Of a DNA stretch of 36,953 bases, positions 5,957 to 35,890 are shown one piece after another. The stretch covers positions 1-36,953 of the forward strand of contig JAFYWK010000037.1 in NCBI GenBank assembly GCA_017558065.1, in the 5' to 3' direction. A program made the translations under genes and the position numbers. The notes below the pieces were generated by a model. The model saw nothing but the letters and a program-made list of their open reading frames with translations, was not told where the DNA came from and did not search any database. Positions within the stretch are counted from its first letter, which is position 1; every line of letters starts with the position of its first letter. Origin of the DNA: Paludibacteraceae bacterium. Lineage in GTDB: Bacteria; Bacteroidota; Bacteroidia; Bacteroidales; Paludibacteraceae.

Positions 5957-6528
5957 AGGTTGGCATTTACGGCGGGTCATTCAATCCTATACACTTTGGG
6001 CACACGGGATTGGCGAAGTGGGTATTAGAGCATACCGACTTAGATGAAGTATGGCTCATGGTTTCGCCCAACAACCCGCTGAAAGACAAGAGCATACTCG
6101 CCGATGAGCAAGAGCGACTGGAGAAGGCGAGAGAGGCAATTGGCGATGAAGCGAAAGGCAAGAGGATATGGGTATCGGACTTCGAGTTTCATCTCCCCCG
6201 CCCTACATATACTGCTAATACATTGCGCGCGCTCGCGAGAGAATACCCCGAACACGAATTTACCCTCATCATCGGCGAAGATAACCTTCAGATATTCGAC
6301 CAATGGCGGGAATACCAATACATATTGGATAACTATCGCGTGTTTGTGTATCCGAGAAGAGATAAAGCGGGTACGCAAGGAGCAACACTACCTGCCGCAG
6401 GCACACAACCTAGCGAAGTGACACAACCTAGCGAAGTGACACAACCTGCCAAAGGCACAATTTTCCTAACAGGAGCACCCTATTTTGATATTTCTTCAAC
6501 AGAATTGCGAAAAAATTTGCATATATAA
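5953..6528 (+). CDS. nadD: Nicotinate-nucleotide adenylyltransferase
   Basis: Transfers AMP from ATP to nicotinate mononucleotide in NAD synthesis. The 191-residue protein carries the nucleotidyltransferase motif GGSFNPIHFGH (7-17) and the C-terminal ISSTELR motif (180-186). Between the conserved FVYPRR and the ISST motif sits a foreign-looking segment of four 6-residue repeats: TLPAAG, TQPSEV, TQPSEV, TQPAKG (residues 145-168). It is encoded by 18-nt units of the same family as the intergenic hairpin arrays, and the reading frame stays open. The insertion lies in what should be a surface loop, so the enzyme is probably functional. The next promoter's -33 box overlaps the end of this gene. 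Confidence 0.95.
   Translation: MKVGIYGGSFNPIHFGHTGLAKWVLEHTDLDEVWLMVSPNNPLKDKSILADEQERLEKAREAIGDEAKGKRIWVSDFEFHLPRPTYTANTLRALAREYPEHEFTLIIGEDNLQIFDQWREYQYILDNYRVFVYPRRDKAGTQGATLPAAGTQPSEVTQPSEVTQPAKGTIFLTGAPYFDISSTELRKNLHI
6385..6456 (+). repeat. Four 18-nt repeat units in frame inside nadD
   Basis: Units at 6385, 6403, 6421 and 6439; the second and third are identical. The spacer part is ACACAACC, the reverse complement of the GGTTGTG spacer in the intergenic arrays. The remainder is a small hairpin: TGCC-gca-GGCA and TGCC-aaa-GGCA in the outer units, imperfect TAGC-gaa-GTGA in the inner two. Confidence 0.88.
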
Positions 6529-14203: not shown

Positions 14204-15339
14204 AAAAAATCCAAATGGTAGATCTGCAAACGCAGTACCAACACATCAAAGAAGATATTGACCGCGGTATTCAAGCGGTTATAGACTCCACAGCATTCAT
14301 CAAAGGTCCTGTTGTCAAAACATTTCAAGAAAACTTAGAAGCATATACGGGTTCCAAGCATGTTATTCCTGTTGGCAACGGTACAGATGCTTTGCAGATT
14401 GCTCTCATGGCACTTGGGCTACAACCTGGCGATGAGGTCATTACTCCTACATTCACTTTTATTGCTACAGCGGAAGTGGTAGCTCTGCTGGGACTGACAC
14501 CTGTGGTGGTAGATGTGGATTGGGATACAATGAACATCTCCGTAGATGCCATCCGCAAAGCCATTACTCCACGCACCAAAGTGATTGTGCCAGTACACTT
14601 GTTTGGTCAGTGCGCCGATATGGACGCCATTATGGACATCGCACACCAACATAATCTATACGTGGTAGAGGACTCCTGCCAAGCTATTGGCGCTAAATAC
14701 ACCCACGCTGACGGCAGTGTGCGTCAGGCCTCTACTATCGGACATATCGGTTGTACCAGTTTCTTCCCTTCGAAGAACTTAGGTTGCTACGGAGACGGTG
14801 GTGCCATTTTCACCAACGATGACGCACTGGCAGATAAGATGCGCGCTATTGCCAATCATGGTATGGTCATCCGCTACCACCACGACCAGATAGGTGTCAA
14901 TTCGCGATTGGATAGTATTCAAGCGGCCGTATTGGATGCCAAGTTACCTCATCTGGATGAGTATATTGCCTCTCGCCAACGTGCTGCTGCCTACTACGAT
15001 AATGCATTCGCTAATCATCCTAATATGCTTATCCCCGCACGCGCCGCACAATCCACCCACGTTTTCCATCAATACACCCTACGCTTGGTGAATGTGAATC
15101 GTGATGCACTGCGAGACGCATTAGCAGAACAGGGTATTCCGTCTATGATATACTACCCTATCCCGCTGCATATGCAAAAGGCATATCAAGACCCACGATA
15201 CCAGGAGGGCGACTTCCCTGTAGCGGAGAAATTGGCTGCATGCGTATTGTCATTGCCTATGCATACCGAACTGGATGATGAGCAATTGGCATACATCACA
15301 CAGAATGTGCTGACTGCAATAGAACATTGTAAGTTGTAA
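14200..15339 (+). CDS. DegT/DnrJ/EryC1/StrS-type sugar aminotransferase
   Basis: PLP-dependent aminotransferase of the family that makes amino sugars for surface polysaccharides. 379 residues. The PLP-binding lysine is K192 in FFPSKNLGCYGDGGA; D158 in VVEDSCQAIGA and GNGTDALQIAL (59-69) are the usual cofactor contacts. Phrases such as MVDLQTQYQHIKEDI and HVFHQYTLRL place it close to WbpE-like enzymes, which aminate UDP-3-keto sugars, but the substrate is inferred only. It is translationally coupled to the YbbR gene and followed by rpoN, with no other polysaccharide genes adjacent. Confidence 0.9.
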   Translation: MKKIQMVDLQTQYQHIKEDIDRGIQAVIDSTAFIKGPVVKTFQENLEAYTGSKHVIPVGNGTDALQIALMALGLQPGDEVITPTFTFIATAEVVALLGLTPVVVDVDWDTMNISVDAIRKAITPRTKVIVPVHLFGQCADMDAIMDIAHQHNLYVVEDSCQAIGAKYTHADGSVRQASTIGHIGCTSFFPSKNLGCYGDGGAIFTNDDALADKMRAIANHGMVIRYHHDQIGVNSRLDSIQAAVLDAKLPHLDEYIASRQRAAAYYDNAFANHPNMLIPARAAQSTHVFHQYTLRLVNVNRDALRDALAEQGIPSMIYYPIPLHMQKAYQDPRYQEGDFPVAEKLAACVLSLPMHTELDDEQLAYITQNVLTAIEHCKL

Positions 15340-20354: not shown

Positions 20355-21074
20355 GTGTTAGACGTTCAGCAAAATATTGCAGCTATTCGCCAACACATTC
20401 CCATTGGCGTTACACTAATTTGCGTCAGCAAATTTCATACGGCTGAGACTATCATGCAGGCGTACGATGCGGGCGAACGAGACTTTGGCGAAAGCAGGGT
20501 GCAAGAGTTGTTGCTCAAGCAGCAGACACTTCCAGCGGATATTCGTTGGCATTTCATCGGGCATCTGCAAACCAATAAAGTGCGCCAGATTGTGCCATTT
20601 GTGCATATGATTCATTCGGTGGATAGTGTGCGTTTGTTGGAAGTCATTAACCGCGAAGCGGAAAAGATCGGTCGCCGTGTGAAGGTGTTGCTGGAGGTGC
20701 ATGTGGCTAAGGAAGATACCAAATCGGGCTTCATGCCAGAAGAAATCTTATCTATAGCCAATAGCGAAGCGTCCTATAGCTCGCTAAGCGAGCGTCCTAT
20801 AGCCATACAGACTCTCTACCCCTGGGTCGAAATCTGCGGTATCATGGGCATGGCAACCAACACCGACGACCAGACGGAGTGGCGCCGCTGCTTCCGCGAG
20901 ATCAAATCCATCGCCAATACCCTATCACCAATAGCCCAACGGGCGTCCCATAGCTCGCAAAGCGAGCGTCCTATCATCAGCATGGGCATGTCCGACGACT
21001 ATCTGGTGGCTATCGAAGAGGGCAGCACCATGGTACGTATTGGTTCATCCATATTCGGCGAAAGACAATACTAA
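20355..21074 (+). CDS. yggS: YggS/PLPBP-family PLP homeostasis protein
   Basis: PLP-binding protein of fold type III that buffers free pyridoxal phosphate. 239 residues. The PLP lysine is K26 in CVSKFH; GERDFGESRVQEL, WHFIGHLQTNK, VHMIHSVD, GIMGMATNT and the C-terminal SMGMSDDY and VRIGSSIFGER are family hallmarks. Start is GTG 20355. Two Ser-rich insertions (residues about 134-152 and 192-206) break otherwise conserved stretches. Both are encoded by copies of a 32-nt palindromic repeat translated in the same frame. The protein still looks complete. Confidence 0.93.
   Translation: MLDVQQNIAAIRQHIPIGVTLICVSKFHTAETIMQAYDAGERDFGESRVQELLLKQQTLPADIRWHFIGHLQTNKVRQIVPFVHMIHSVDSVRLLEVINREAEKIGRRVKVLLEVHVAKEDTKSGFMPEEILSIANSEASYSSLSERPIAIQTLYPWVEICGIMGMATNTDDQTEWRRCFREIKSIANTLSPIAQRASHSSQSERPIISMGMSDDYLVAIEEGSTMVRIGSSIFGERQY
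20754..20812 (+). repeat. Palindromic repeat insertion 1 in yggS
   Basis: Core at 20769-20800 contains the hairpin GCTCGC-taa-GCGAGC flanked by GTCCTATA on one side and GTCCTAT on the other. It is preceded by a degenerate heptad stretch (TATAGCC, AATAGCG). It matches the second copy at 30 of 32 core positions. Confidence 0.85.
20926..20977 (+). repeat. Palindromic repeat insertion 2 in yggS
   Basis: Core at 20943-20974 with hairpin GCTCGC-aaa-GCGAGC. Just upstream is a second small hairpin GCCC-aac-GGGC and the heptads ATCACCA ATAGCCC that also occur in the response-regulator linker. Confidence 0.85.
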
Positions 21075-21080
21075 CCCCTC

Positions 21081-21150
21081 ACAACTCTACACCACTCTAA
21101 ACAACTCTACACAACTCTACACCATTCTAAACAACTCTACACCACCCTAC
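21081..21150 (+). repeat. 10-nt tandem array after yggS
   Basis: Seven 10-nt units: ACAACTCTAC, ACCACTCTAA, ACAACTCTAC twice, ACCATTCTAA, ACAACTCTAC, ACCACCCTAC. The array begins 6 nt after the yggS stop and ends 3 nt before the HAD-gene ATG, so it occupies the whole intercistronic gap. Related units occur at 33281-33330, 33557-33642 and 34931-34960. Confidence 0.9.
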
Positions 21151-21153
21151 ACA

Positions 21154-21756
21154 ATGACAATTATCCTCGATTTAGGCGGAGTGCTCATGCAGCACAATAT
21201 GCCAGAATGTATGGCACGATTTCGTGCAATCTTAGGCGAAGAAGGCATGGCAGAAGTATTGGGCATGAAGTCCAATGCGGAGGGTGTGCCTAATAGTTTG
21301 ATGGATCAGTATGAGTGCGGCTCGGTGAGCACAGATGAGTTTGTGAATGCTATCTTGTCGCGTGCCAAAGCGGGTACTACGGCACAGGAGGTGAAAGACG
21401 CATGGAACGCCATGCACGCAGGTATTCCTGCGGAGCGTATGTCATTGATTCAGAGCTGGAAGGATAAGGGGCATCGTTTGGTGATGTTGAGCAACAACAA
21501 TGCCTTGCATTGGGAAGACATACATCTGAAATACGATTTTTCGATGTTTGACTACATGTTTTCTTCACATTTGGTCCATTGCAACAAACCCAATCGAGGT
21601 ATTTATGAGGTTGTGCATCAGTATCTTGTTGATAATCACTACGAACAGCCCTATCATTTTGTAGATGACTTGCCTGCCAATCGCCACATGGGCGAGGCAT
21701 TTGGTTGGATTACTTATCCCACACTGGATGCACTGAATCAAACCATGCATGAATGA
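21154..21756 (+). CDS. HAD-superfamily hydrolase (YihX-like)
   Basis: 200-residue cytoplasmic HAD phosphatase. Motif I is ILDLGGVLM, in which the second catalytic Asp is Gly, the form seen in YihX-like sugar-phosphate phosphatases. Motif II is MLSNNN, motif III lies around the conserved Lys in CNKPNRGIYE, and motif IV is FVDDLPAN. Substrate unknown. The open frame extends upstream through the 10-nt repeat array, but ATG 21154 gives the correct family start and the array would only add low-complexity residues. Confidence 0.88.
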   Translation: MTIILDLGGVLMQHNMPECMARFRAILGEEGMAEVLGMKSNAEGVPNSLMDQYECGSVSTDEFVNAILSRAKAGTTAQEVKDAWNAMHAGIPAERMSLIQSWKDKGHRLVMLSNNNALHWEDIHLKYDFSMFDYMFSSHLVHCNKPNRGIYEVVHQYLVDNHYEQPYHFVDDLPANRHMGEAFGWITYPTLDALNQTMHE

Positions 21757-24790: not shown

Positions 24791-24815
24791 ATTTATTGTT
24801 TAAAATTCTTTTAAA

Positions 24816-25042
24816 GGTTGTGTCGCTTCGCGAAGTTGTGCGCCTTCGCGGGTTATGTCGCTTTGCGAAGTTGTGCGCCTTTGGCGGGTTGTGTGCGCTC
24901 CGCGCAGGTTTTGTCGGCTTTGCCGAAGTAACTGCTGCGCAGCAGCCACCACCTCCCGAAGGGACATTACCTCCCGCAGGGACACCACCTCGCCCAACAG
25001 GCGACATCATCTCCCACAGGAACATTACCCACGCGCAGCGTG
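24816..25042. repeat. Hairpin array 1, between OYE and SDR genes
   Basis: About thirteen consecutive small hairpins. In order on the plus strand: TCGC-ttc-GCGA, a damaged CGCC unit, TCGC-ttt-GCGA, CGCC-ttt-GGCG, TGCGC-tcc-GCGCA, TCGGC-ttt-GCCGA, palindrome CTGCTGCGCAGCAG, TCCC-gaa-GGGA, TCCC-gca-GGGA, TCGCC-caaca-GGCGA, TCCC-aca-GGAA, CACGC-gca-GCGTG. Spacers are mostly 7 nt (GTTGTG type on the left, CACCACC or CATTACC on the right). It starts 6 nt after the OYE stop codon in transcript direction and ends about 25 nt before the SDR start. Confidence 0.9.
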
Positions 25043-33848: not shown

Positions 33849-34021
33849 GTTATGTGCGCTTTGCGCAGGTTATGTCGCTTCGCGAGGTTGTGCGCCTTTG
33901 GCGAATTGTGTGCCTTTGGCGGGTTGTGTGCGCTCCGCGCAGGTTTTGTCGGCTTTACCGAAGTAACTGCTGCGCAGCAGCCACCACCTCCCGAAGGGAC
34001 ACCACCTCGCCCAACGGGCGA
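33849..34021. repeat. Hairpin array 2
   Basis: Nine hairpins with mostly 7-nt spacers: TGCGC-ttt-GCGCA, TCGC-ttc-GCGA, CGCC-ttt-GGCG, a TGCC-ttt-GGC variant, TGCGC-tcc-GCGCA, TCGGC-ttt-ACCGA (one mismatch), palindrome CTGCTGCGCAGCAG, TCCC-gaa-GGGA, TCGCCC-aac-GGGCGA. It begins 2 nt after the stop of the 61-residue membrane-protein gene (transcript direction) and ends 16 nt before the DUF5675 start. Confidence 0.9.
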
Positions 34022-34023
34022 CA

Positions 34024-34209
34024 TCACTCGCGATAGCGGTAGTGGTAGTCTATCCCTATCAGACTCCCGCTGAAGGTGAGTATCTCTCCAAAAGCAATGA
34101 GTACGGAGTGGTGTATCTCGCCCACAGGTGGGCAGCAGAAGCCCGCGATGAGCAGGACGCCTCCAAAGACGCATAGCCCGACAGATAATATCAATTGCAC
34201 TTTCTTCAT
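34024..34209 (-). CDS. Small membrane protein, unknown function
   Basis: 61 residues with two hydrophobic stretches (LILSVGLCVFGGVLLIAGF and SVLIAFGEILTFSGSLIGI), ending in the polar YHYRYRE. I recall near-identical small membrane proteins in Bacteroides-type islands next to lysis genes, so a holin-like role is conceivable but unproven. Start ATG 34209. Its stop abuts hairpin array 2. Confidence 0.7.
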   Translation of the reverse strand: MKKVQLILSVGLCVFGGVLLIAGFCCPPVGEIHHSVLIAFGEILTFSGSLIGIDYHYRYRE

Positions 34210-34236: not shown

Positions 34237-34384
34237 ATCGCCCTAAAGGGCTTGAAGATAGAGGATCGCCCTAAAGGGCTTGAAGTTCGGGCTGAAGCCC
34301 TTGAAGACTTCAAGCGAAGCGAACTTCCATCTTCAAGCGAAGCGATCTTCAAGCCCTTCAGGGCGATCTTCAAGCGCAGCGATC
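34237..34384. repeat. TTGAAG/CTTCAAG repeat array with inverted halves
   Basis: Left half: hairpins GCCCTaaAGGGC (34240-34251, 34268-34279) and GGGCTgaAGCCC (34289-34300) with TTGAAG spacers. Centre: CTTGAAGACTTCAAG (34300-34314), a near-perfect palindrome. Right half: spacers ATCTTCAAG with units AGCGAAGCGA, AGCCCTTCAGGGCGA, AGCGCAGCGA. It fills the gap between two minus-strand genes and abuts the stop codon at 34385. Confidence 0.88.
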
Positions 34385-34717
34385 TTACCCCTCATACTCA
34401 TTCCACTCTTGGCGGAAGACGTAGTGATAGAGGGTCTTGTACTTGGTTTGCGCCTTGAACGCCATCATGTCGGCAGCGGCTTGCGATGGGTCTGCCATAC
34501 GCGAACGAGTAGCAGCAGCCACGGCCTTGAACTTAGCGCGGTGCATGAGTTCCTTCTCGGTGTAGGGCTTGTTCTTCAGGTCGCGTTGACCCGTAGCAGA
34601 GCATCCGCGTGGGCGTTTGCCCCAGTTGCGGGTCACTGCGGTAAATTTCTGTTTCTTTCCAAAGATTTTGCCTGATGCGTTATCCACAGGCGCAAGGTAA
34701 TTAATTGATCCAGCCAT
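34385..34717 (-). CDS. Hypothetical protein, paralogue of the 35305-35640 product
   Basis: 110 residues from ATG 34717; the in-frame ATG at 34741 lies in the promoter. Family pattern: LAPVDNASGKIFGK near the N terminus, KPYTEKELMHRAKFKAVAAATRSRMADPSQAAADMMAFKAQTKYKTLYHYVF in the C-terminal half. It aligns by eye with the protein encoded at 35305-35640 (SGK, TE-x6-F, ADP, AFKAQ/AYKAQ). Common in Bacteroidetes islands near lysis-type genes, but function unknown. Confidence 0.7.
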   Translation of the reverse strand: MAGSINYLAPVDNASGKIFGKKQKFTAVTRNWGKRPRGCSATGQRDLKNKPYTEKELMHRAKFKAVAAATRSRMADPSQAAADMMAFKAQTKYKTLYHYVFRQEWNEYEG

Positions 34718-34738
34718 AGTATTTTCGGCAATCGAACA

Positions 34739-34770
34739 CAAAGTTAGAAGACAAACAAAAATTATTCAAA
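34739..34770 (-). promoter_or_regulatory. Bacteroidetes-type promoter for the 34385-34717 gene
   Basis: Minus strand TTTG (34770-34767), 20 nt, TAACTTTG (34746-34739), 21 nt upstream of ATG 34717. This decides the start codon. Confidence 0.85.
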
Positions 34771-34930: not shown

Positions 34931-34960
34931 GTTAGAGTTGTTTAGAATTGTTTAGAGTTG
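34931..34960. repeat. 10-nt repeats at the edge of hairpin array 3
   Basis: GTTAGAGTTG, TTTAGAATTG, TTTAGAGTTG: reverse-complement form of the ACAACTCTAC family, running directly into array 3. Confidence 0.85.
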
Positions 34961-35293
34961 TGTCGCTTTGCGAGGTTGTGCGCCGTTGGCGGGTTGTGTC
35001 GCTTTGCGAAGTTGTGCGCCTTTGGCGGGTTGTGTCGCTTTGCGAGGTTGTGCGCCGTTGGCGGGTTGTGTCGCTTTGCGAAGTTGTGCGCCGCTGGCGG
35101 GTTCTGTCGGCTTTGCCGAAGTAACTGCTGCGCAGCAGCCACCACCTCCCGAAGGGACATTACTTCCCGCAGGGACACCACCTCGCCCAACGGGCGACAT
35201 CACCTCCCGAAGGGACATCACTTCCCGCAGGGACACCACCTCGCCCAACGGGCGACATCACCTCCCGAAGGGACACCACCCACGCGCAGCGTG
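34957..35293. repeat. Hairpin array 3, the longest and most regular
   Basis: Eighteen hairpins. The left part is eight units at exactly 18-nt spacing (starts 34963, 34981, 34999 ... 35089) alternating TCGC-ttt-GCGA and CGCC-nnt-GGCG with GGTTGTG or AGTTGTG spacers. Then come TCGGC-ttt-GCCGA (35107-35119) and palindrome CTGCTGCGCAGCAG (35125-35138). The right part has TCCC-gaa-GGGA, TCCC-gca-GGGA, TCGCCC-aac-GGGCGA, the same trio again, TCCC-gaa-GGGA, and finally CACGC-gca-GCGTG (35281-35293), with 7-nt CACCACC/CATCACC-type spacers. It begins 11 nt after the stop of the 35305-35640 gene. Confidence 0.93.
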
Positions 35294-35304
35294 CTCAACC
35301 TTGC

Positions 35305-35640
35305 TTAGGCGATGGGATCGCCATTCTCGTCGTACTGGTGTTTGATTTTTTTGATCACGTAGCCGAGCAGCGAACCGATACGATGCTGTGCCTTGTAGGC
35401 AGTTTCGTACTTAGCACGTTGCTCTGGATCGGCAAGGATAGCGCGAGCAGCGTCGCCGATTTTGGTAAAGCGGGTTTGCACTTTGATTTGTGCTTCCGTA
35501 GGTTCCGCATCCGATGGGTTGCACAACTTACCCGTGCTGACCTCGCTGGTCTGACGGTTGGTACGGAAATACATGTCGGAGTGTTGGCACACCTTGCCAC
35601 TCATCGACTCTACGATTGCGATTGGTTTGATTTTGGACAT
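35305..35640 (-). CDS. Hypothetical protein, paralogue of the 34385-34717 product
   Basis: 111 residues. N-terminal IKPIAIVESMSGKVCQHSDMYFRTNRQT; C-terminal TEAQIKVQTRFTKIGDAARAILADPEQRAKYETAYKAQHRIGSLLGYVI. No known domain is apparent to me. Homology to the other paralogue suggests gene duplication within the island. No good promoter was found; a TAATTTTG-like box on the minus strand at 35794-35787 lacks a matching -33 element. Confidence 0.7.
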   Translation of the reverse strand: MSKIKPIAIVESMSGKVCQHSDMYFRTNRQTSEVSTGKLCNPSDAEPTEAQIKVQTRFTKIGDAARAILADPEQRAKYETAYKAQHRIGSLLGYVIKKIKHQYDENGDPIA

Positions 35641-35670
35641 ACTGTTTTGTTTTTAGGGTTAATATTTACC

Positions 35671-35702
35671 ACTGAAATTCACTGAAACACACTGAAACTC
35701 AG
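35671..35702. repeat. CACTGAAA 10-nt repeat
   Basis: ACTGAAATTC, ACTGAAACAC, ACTGAAACTC plus a partial unit, 30 nt upstream of the start codon at 35640. Confidence 0.8.
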
Positions 35703-35850
35703 AAAAATATTCCGTATTTCCGTGTTCGTCTGTGCTCGTCAGTGGTTGGCTGTTTCTTGAATGGCGCGCTCATTCGAAAAACGATGCAAAATTACAACAC
35801 GCTCAGTGCGCATTGTGGAACACGTTCGCTCTGCGTGGGACATTGCCCGA

Positions 35851-35890
35851 CAAAACACGACAAAACACGACAAAACACGACAAAACGATG
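35851..35890. repeat. CAAAACACGA 10-nt tandem repeat
   Basis: Three perfect CAAAACACGA units and a fourth diverged one, in a non-coding stretch about 55 nt upstream of a terminator hairpin. Confidence 0.9.

Follow-up and report, generated by a model that had tools for sequence, protein, structure and literature searches.

The locus between positions 34957 and 35293 of the window (the whole stretch of DNA analysed here, 36,953 nt from the genome of a Paludibacteraceae bacterium, G000) raises the question what kind of element consists of a string of tiny hairpins with differing stems, and how such stems stay paired. The coordinates given for the array in an initial annotation are correct, and the 18 hairpins described there, most of them with 3-nt loops, were recovered: 18 non-overlapping hairpins with stems of 4–6 bp lie at 34963–35293, and the loop is 3 nt long in every one of them (18/18). 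The annotation had proposed a comparison with shuffled sequence of the same composition, and such shuffles do not reach the observed density. In 1000 dinucleotide-preserving shuffles of the array region, 1.9 hairpins were found on average and 8 at most, which rules out a chance origin. With the centre taken as GCTGC-GCA-GCAGC, all linkers are 7 nt long (17/17), as had been claimed, but the 18-nt period claimed along with them does not hold. Stems of 4 bp give a step of 18 nt, those of 5 or 6 bp one of 20 or 22 nt, so that the linker, and not the period, is the constant part of the array. Seven stem words were counted including the centre (TCCC five times, TCGC and CGCC four times each, TCGCCC twice, and TCGGC, GCTGC and CACGC), in line with the "at least six" of the annotation. 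Since many of the 18 hairpins are tandem duplicates (with a period of 36 bp on the left and 58 bp on the right), the independent evidence for stem change within this array amounts to seven words and not to 18. Open frames run across the array because of the 18-nt step; a protein-coding reading was rejected, as the 5-bp stems give a step of 20 nt. A tRNA identity was rejected as well, and no Rfam match in the window reached the gathering score, which leaves no known structured RNA family.

On the minus strand, which is the coding strand of both neighbouring genes, the stop codon of the upstream gene (35305–35640, minus strand, 111 aa, no Pfam match) is followed after 11 nt by the terminal hairpin CACGC-GCA-GCGTG (35281–35293). 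Next comes the B side (35140–35280), seven hairpins (TCCC x5, TCGCCC x2) joined by GGTGRTG linkers, i.e. of the GGTGGTG/GGTGATG type, and then the centre hairpin within the palindrome CTGCTGCGCAGCAG (35127–35139). The A side (34957–35121) comprises nine hairpins (TCGC x4, CGCC x4, TCGGC) with the linkers CACAACC or CACAACT and one CAGAACC. Between it and the next gene (a 118-aa ORF at 34385–34741, minus strand, without a match in the Pfam scan) lies a hairpin-free 10-bp repeat of the ACAACTCTAA type (34932–34961, minus strand), which has the same linker and continues into the array. Read on the plus strand, the left linkers are of the GTTGTG type and the right ones of the CACCACC type, as annotated, and the right ones resemble the reverse complement of the left ones. 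The description of the array as a quasi-palindrome is appropriate for linker type and overall fold, whereas the halves are not inverted copies of each other: a repeat search (exact seed 9) revealed no inverted pair of at least 10 bp within the array, and the stem words are not alike on the two sides.

Hairpin-free 10-bp repeats of the ACAACTCTAA type, with the linker sequence of the array, are also found at 21080–21154 of the window and in G000 at C35:24229, C19:8144, C70:29087 and C68:28765 and 111996; by eye, they lie right before likely start codons at several sites. The 111-aa protein belongs to a multi-copy family, as it is matched 13 times in G000 and several times in many relatives. Further 10-bp repeats upstream of its gene (CGACAAAACA four times, and CACTGAAACT) are located at 35848–35886 and 35670–35701.

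Folding of RNA and single-stranded DNA, another check proposed in the annotation, gave negative z-scores against shuffles on both strands (plus-strand RNA -5.5, minus-strand RNA -4.0, minus-strand ssDNA -3.0). The picture of beads on a string is not what equilibrium folding predicts for the sense-strand RNA, where a long rod (-164.6 kcal/mol) is favoured over separate hairpins (-85.1 kcal/mol). Despite the predicted rod, local hairpins could form during transcription or in single-stranded DNA. The sequence GCGAAGC, an unusually stable DNA hairpin, looks by eye like a 2-bp version of the array unit.

Linker families and their distribution

The array had been taken for one local object. There are, however, at least two linker families dispersed in the clade, in intergenic gaps as well as in coding sequence, and the array is a member of one of them. 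Family 1 has linkers of the CACAACC and GGTGATG types, as in the window array, while family 2, with an 8-nt linker of the GTCCNATA type, surfaced in a de novo search. Within the window, a sister array with the same B-centre-A layout (24815–25041, minus strand) is flanked by genes for a short-chain dehydrogenase and an FMN oxidoreductase, both on the minus strand, and another one (33853–34040, minus strand) is located upstream of a DUF5675 gene, whose ORF as called passes through it. Four linker-hairpin units (two perfect, two imperfect) are found in frame in a nadD-like gene (6385–6459, plus strand; Pfam CTP_transf_like, gene name by sight), and family 2 units with the linker GTCCCATA within a yggS-like gene (20921–20985, plus strand; likewise named by sight). 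A hairpin cluster with TTGAAGAT and ATCTTCAAG linkers (34240–34390) possibly represents a third family; its linker orientation flips midway.

Elsewhere in G000, an array at C53:55066–55215 holds eight hairpins and an array on C51 repeats the B-centre-A layout. The centre word GCTGC, with another loop, is central in both of these and in an array on contig C14 of the related genome G014. The annotation had named an assembly artefact confined to this place as the outcome that would speak against a real element; comparable arrays exist elsewhere in the window, in the genome and in other species, and the recurrence of this layout at further sites of G000 and in assemblies of other species rules an artefact out. 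In approximately 371 kb of G000, a sample including the window and stretches picked for containing matches, a spacing of 7 nt separated 37 pairs of consecutive 3-nt-loop hairpins, of which the window array contributes 17 (one pair in one shuffle), and every other distance up to 20 nt occurred in at most four pairs. Chains of at least two hairpins numbered 19 in 568 kb of G000 (shuffled, three) and 12 in 417 kb of G014 (shuffled, one). Such enrichment was absent from a 406-kb set drawn from many species of the genus, made up of the surroundings of uvrA and nadD and of other stretches (two chains, shuffled six); one of these two chains is the uvrA of G000 itself.

When named genomes were scanned with a pattern, 20 stretches matched, two of which stem from Paludibacteraceae metagenome-assembled genomes (MAGs; water buffalo caecum and roe deer colon). 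The 18 others were taken for chance matches, and arrays like that of the window were found in none of the four examined. Family 1 gave 19 matches in six of 121 species of the genus and none with the reversed pattern; the pattern fixes the C and G closing the loop and is therefore not a neutral test of pairing. Patterns consisting of the linker only leave the stems free and represent a fair test. For family 2, the pattern GTCCNATA-N11-GTCCNATA matched 95 times in 16 of 178 genomes of the genus (reversed pattern, three times). Perfect 4-bp stems with a 3-nt loop, made of seven words, were found in 83 of the 95 matches and stems with one mismatch in 11, while the single match in G072 is not a hairpin; accordingly, 15 of 178 species carry this form. 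With reshuffled arms 35.2 perfect stems were obtained (maximum 50), an expectation that is high because two words dominate. The pattern GTCCNATA-N13-GTCCNATA matched 25 times in seven of 121 genomes and yielded 17 perfect 5-bp stems of six words (2.9 expected from reshuffled arms, maximum 10); in G083 and G009 the matching sequence does not form a hairpin. With the N13 pattern reversed, 15 matches resulted, never more than one per genome, as compared to 14 matches of the true pattern in G014 alone.

A uvrA search covered 61 genomes, and each of the five relatives that are at least 87% identical to G000 in this gene (G014, G074, G070, G055 and G041) has family 1, family 2 or both. In the other 55 of these genomes, the three patterns matched only in G009 and G072, in neither case a hairpin. 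An order-wide search of 295 genomes with a stricter pattern gave a match in G000 only; as this pattern is rare even there (one match), the search is insensitive and tests the limit of the clade outside the genus only roughly. Phage origin was rejected on zero matches of two narrow exact patterns in viral contigs, which is a weak test. Contigs of G055 are 98–99.5% identical to G078 and 98% to G077 (L228 versus L225; L302 versus L303). This suggests a transfer or a mixed bin, and results for G055 are to be taken with care.

Arrays in intergenic gaps and in protein genes

Presence and absence of arrays at one site are observed directly between relatives. The two genes flanking the window array also stand together in G070 and G014, and short repeats free of hairpins make up the gaps of 34 and 39 bp, respectively, between them; in G074, where the identity of the next ORF is doubtful, the gap contains short repeats and two single hairpins. 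At a second site (locus V), an array is present in G077 and missing from the short gaps of G074, G014, G070 and G000. A third (locus X) is an array site common to G000, G055 and G070 with different units, while G014 has other sequence there. The same three words are found in G078 and G014 at locus U, in reversed order. In the leader of a uridine-kinase-like gene (locus T, L293–L297; name by sight), two hairpins are common to five species, one of which gained a further unit; mismatches persist in three of the five, which is unlike strong selection on pairing. This two-hairpin leader is nearly identical in the five species and lies directly behind a TAACTTTG motif, which we take to be promoter-like. 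Array-free orthologous gaps are too diverged for the exact array ends to be read, and no target-site duplication was established.

Ten array-bearing proteins were scanned for domains. The array lies within a Pfam domain match in four of them (RecQ DEAD, RecJ DHH of G014, radical SAM and MutY-type NUDIX) and outside or between domains, or in a protein with no domain above the cut-off, in the other six. The nadD-like array of the window occupies a loop which is variable among 30 species including G000, the other 29 having other sequence at this place. At its uvrA-like array, the G000 protein is 6 to 18 aa longer than those of six relatives (G074, G041, G009, G065, G049 and G066), with 18 aa against the two closest of these. 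RecJ is encoded with two arrays in G014, with decayed ones in G077 and with none in G000, where one loop has hairpin-free CTAACC repeats. In the recJ of G014 (L240 6719–7240), a family 2 array flips its linker orientation midway, as does the window array. Conserved repair proteins (UvrA-like, RecJ, RecQ, MutY-type) can thus carry loops encoded by repeats. Two different reading frames in G014, one encoding a radical SAM protein and the other a protein without Pfam match above the cut-off, share a 98-bp string at 95% identity, which is direct evidence of dispersal.

These observations bear on plain slippage, i.e. local tandem expansion of gap sequence in the absence of any dispersal. Such a process would account for the different 7–10-nt repeats which the same gap site holds in different species and for the hairpin-free repeat running on into the window array. 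It may apply to the hairpin-free repeats. For the hairpin units it is contradicted by the same stem words and linkers at many unlinked sites in many species and by the near-identical string in two different genes, and as an explanation of the arrays we regard slippage as very unlikely. The observed dispersal and tandem growth rather point to a modular repeat that is copied to new sites.

Stem pairing and gene orientation

That stems vary as units and stay self-complementary, as stated in the initial annotation, applies genus-wide, as evident from the seven words and 83 perfect stems (out of 95) in the linker-only matches. All four states of a compensatory change, including the one-step intermediates, were found for two words (N11 matches): GGCG/CGCC (30), GGTG/CGCC (2), GGCG/CACC (1) and GGTG/CACC (2) in one set, GCCC/GGGC (45), GTCC/GGGC (1), GCCC/GGAC (1) and GTCC/GGAC (1) in the other. 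Loops are more variable than stems. When family 2 units were restricted to those with no more than one mismatch (100 units, 91 of them perfect), a cut-off that favours good stems in this comparison, 53 of 219 loop sites deviated from the usual loop of the word (for words seen at least three times), while nine of 962 stem sites were mismatched. When no mismatch cut was applied, 96 of 115 linker-flanked units were perfect. In the A-side units of family 1, 18 of 96 loop sites differed, with 11 mismatches in 410 stem sites. The annotation had offered selection for structure or templated copying as causes, and the results are compatible with either.

Template switching at quasi-palindromes, in which the polymerase copies one arm from the other, is a known mutational process and predicts correction of arms anywhere in the genome. 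Taken alone, with neither a function nor mobility beyond tandem slippage, it would fit stems that are mostly perfect in gaps and coding sequence alike and the compensatory states with intermediates, which look like arm correction. In yeast genes the process homogenises the arms of inverted repeats, those considered in the available portion of that report being at least 7 bp long (PMC8604942), as opposed to mostly 4–6 bp here. The process also predicts some inversion of loops, and none was seen for the commonest word, GCCC (0 of 45). It leaves unexplained the same words and the 98-bp string at unlinked places as well as the bias in orientation described below, and the mismatches at locus T persist. 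As the sole cause, template switching is unlikely.

Orientation was counted relative to plain ORFs of at least 100 aa. Family 1 arrays are in sense in all 13 gaps between codirectional genes and in one divergent gap (14/14, three of which represent one orthologous site). Family 2 arrays in codirectional gaps are in sense in 22 cases and in antisense in nine, two of the latter being one near-identical site in G078 and G055. In convergent gaps they are in sense with the nearer gene (6/6), and in divergent gaps the counts are two and one. In coding sequence 11 are in sense and 13 in antisense, so that family 2 is biased towards sense in gaps and not in coding sequence. Arrays often start within approximately 20 nt of a stop codon or finish within approximately 30 nt of a start codon. 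Two convergent genes on L225 each have their own sense array 3 nt after the stop codon (14661–14715, plus strand, and 14840–14871, minus strand).

This arrangement would suit intercistronic RNA elements, i.e. functional mRNA structures between co-transcribed genes, with stems kept paired by selection on RNA; they might stabilise the upstream message, stop ribosomes or exonucleases, or shape downstream initiation. Besides the sense bias and the proximity to stop and start codons, the variable loops next to invariant stems and the persistence of orthologous arrays at locus X (three species, changed units) and in the uridine-kinase-like leader (five species) are in favour of such a role, with co-transcription inferred from gene order only. 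If stems are kept by selection on RNA, they should be better in gaps, and family 2 shows a trend in this direction (73 of 80 gap units had perfect stems, as did 41 of 51 units in coding sequence, p = 0.11; units with at most two mismatches, seven units in short ORFs excluded). Such selection also predicts G.U-type intermediates on the sense strand, and no excess of these was seen among the few single mismatches (four G.U versus six A.C). Scored on the GTCC strand (antisense in most gaps), single mismatches were of the G.T type in five cases, of the A.C type in three and of other types in three. Family 2 units in coding sequence, in both orientations and with nearly as many perfect stems, orthologous gaps that manage without arrays, and a predicted fold other than local hairpins stand against this explanation, which we consider possible, if somewhat improbable, as the main account.

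Taken together, the array is probably a dispersed, modular hairpin-forming repeat in one species group of a Paludibacteraceae genus, with units that are copied, grow in tandem and keep their pairing. The unit would comprise a 7- or 8-nt linker and one micro-hairpin (mostly with a 4–6-bp stem and a 3-nt loop) whose stem is one of a limited set of words. Single units or short strings would be copied to new sites, i.e. intergenic gaps and protein loops, and then multiplied in tandem; the complementarity of the stems would survive while the loops drift. We infer that pairing is kept by a mix of recent copying and of template switching that restores one arm from the other; in gaps, where the arrays are predominantly in sense orientation relative to the genes, selection for a folded mRNA stretch may add to this. 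More tentatively, and with considerable doubt, the arrays might form a new class of bacterial repeat, in which a short linker with an interchangeable hairpin word spreads without a transposase of known type and its stems, held paired by copying, change as units across a clade. With its many species, two linker families, dozens of copies, array-free orthologous sites and insertions in core genes, the clade would allow tree-based counts of gain, loss, arm correction and strand preference, followed by tests in a cultured Bacteroidales host.

Comparison with known repeat systems

CRISPR arrays are composed of identical 24–48-bp repeats parted by unique spacers, and MITEs have terminal inverted repeats, target-site duplications and a partner transposase. 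The regular spacing is common to CRISPR and the present arrays; a long identical repeat and unique spacers of constant length are missing here, and the variable part is itself palindromic, which bears out the view of the initial annotation that the array is not CRISPR. Assignment to REP/RAYT, which it had likewise doubted, is not supported. The RAYT/TnpA-REP or reverse transcriptase partner that it suggested looking for did not emerge: Y1_Tnp (PF01797) had no match in the near-complete MAGs G000 (94% complete) and G014 (98% complete), from which a contig may be missing, while eight of nine genomes of other families of the order matched. One reverse transcriptase is encoded in G000 and none in G014, and this enzyme was rejected as a common factor.

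A REP/BIME-type element mobilised by a RAYT transposase would share with the arrays the grouping of short extragenic palindromes in both orientations and the alternative stems. In the accessible part of their description, REPs are grouped extragenic palindromes in opposite orientations, with families of alternative stems, mostly of 6–9 bp, and a possible role in transcripts, and that part contains no arrays with constant 7–8-nt linkers (PMC3733652). The arrays differ in their shorter stems, constant linkers, many insertions in coding sequence and the absence of a RAYT from G000 and G014. A constant GTAG/CGTC foot is likewise absent, GTAG occurring in 11 of 100 family 2 linkers, and family 1 linkers being of the types given above. 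Altogether, this origin is extremely improbable. The in-frame insertion into unrelated genes (nadD-like, uvrA-like, recJ, recQ and others) is also met in the palindromic elements of Rickettsia, with ten identified families of units of approximately 150 bp according to the excerpted account (PMC10969869); by that description they are set apart from modules of approximately 18–23 nt that are strung together and have interchangeable stems.

In the open-access literature, at the level of titles and abstract openings, no description of linker-plus-hairpin arrays in Bacteroidales was found. The closest likeness is with mitochondrial repetitive hairpin-forming elements, small inverted repeats and GC clusters, which, in the sections available, are likewise short hairpins between and inside genes, with conserved stems, more variable loops and differences among relatives, a likeness of kind that implies no common descent. 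In sponge mitochondria, stems are conserved, loops differ, a few complementary substitutions are present and hairpins occur in tandem as double or multiple copies, as far as the excerpt of that study goes (PMC2800124). Placozoan mitochondria have a GC-rich family of hairpins with variable stems and a 3-nt loop, the multiplication of which is left to further work in the part of the paper at hand (PMC7813641). The arrays described here differ from these elements in their location on a bacterial chromosome, the constant 7- or 8-nt linker, the number of units (up to 18), the in-frame position in conserved protein genes and the sense bias in gaps. By analogy, the arrays of these uncultured gut bacteria look like a bacterial counterpart of the mitochondrial hairpin repeats.
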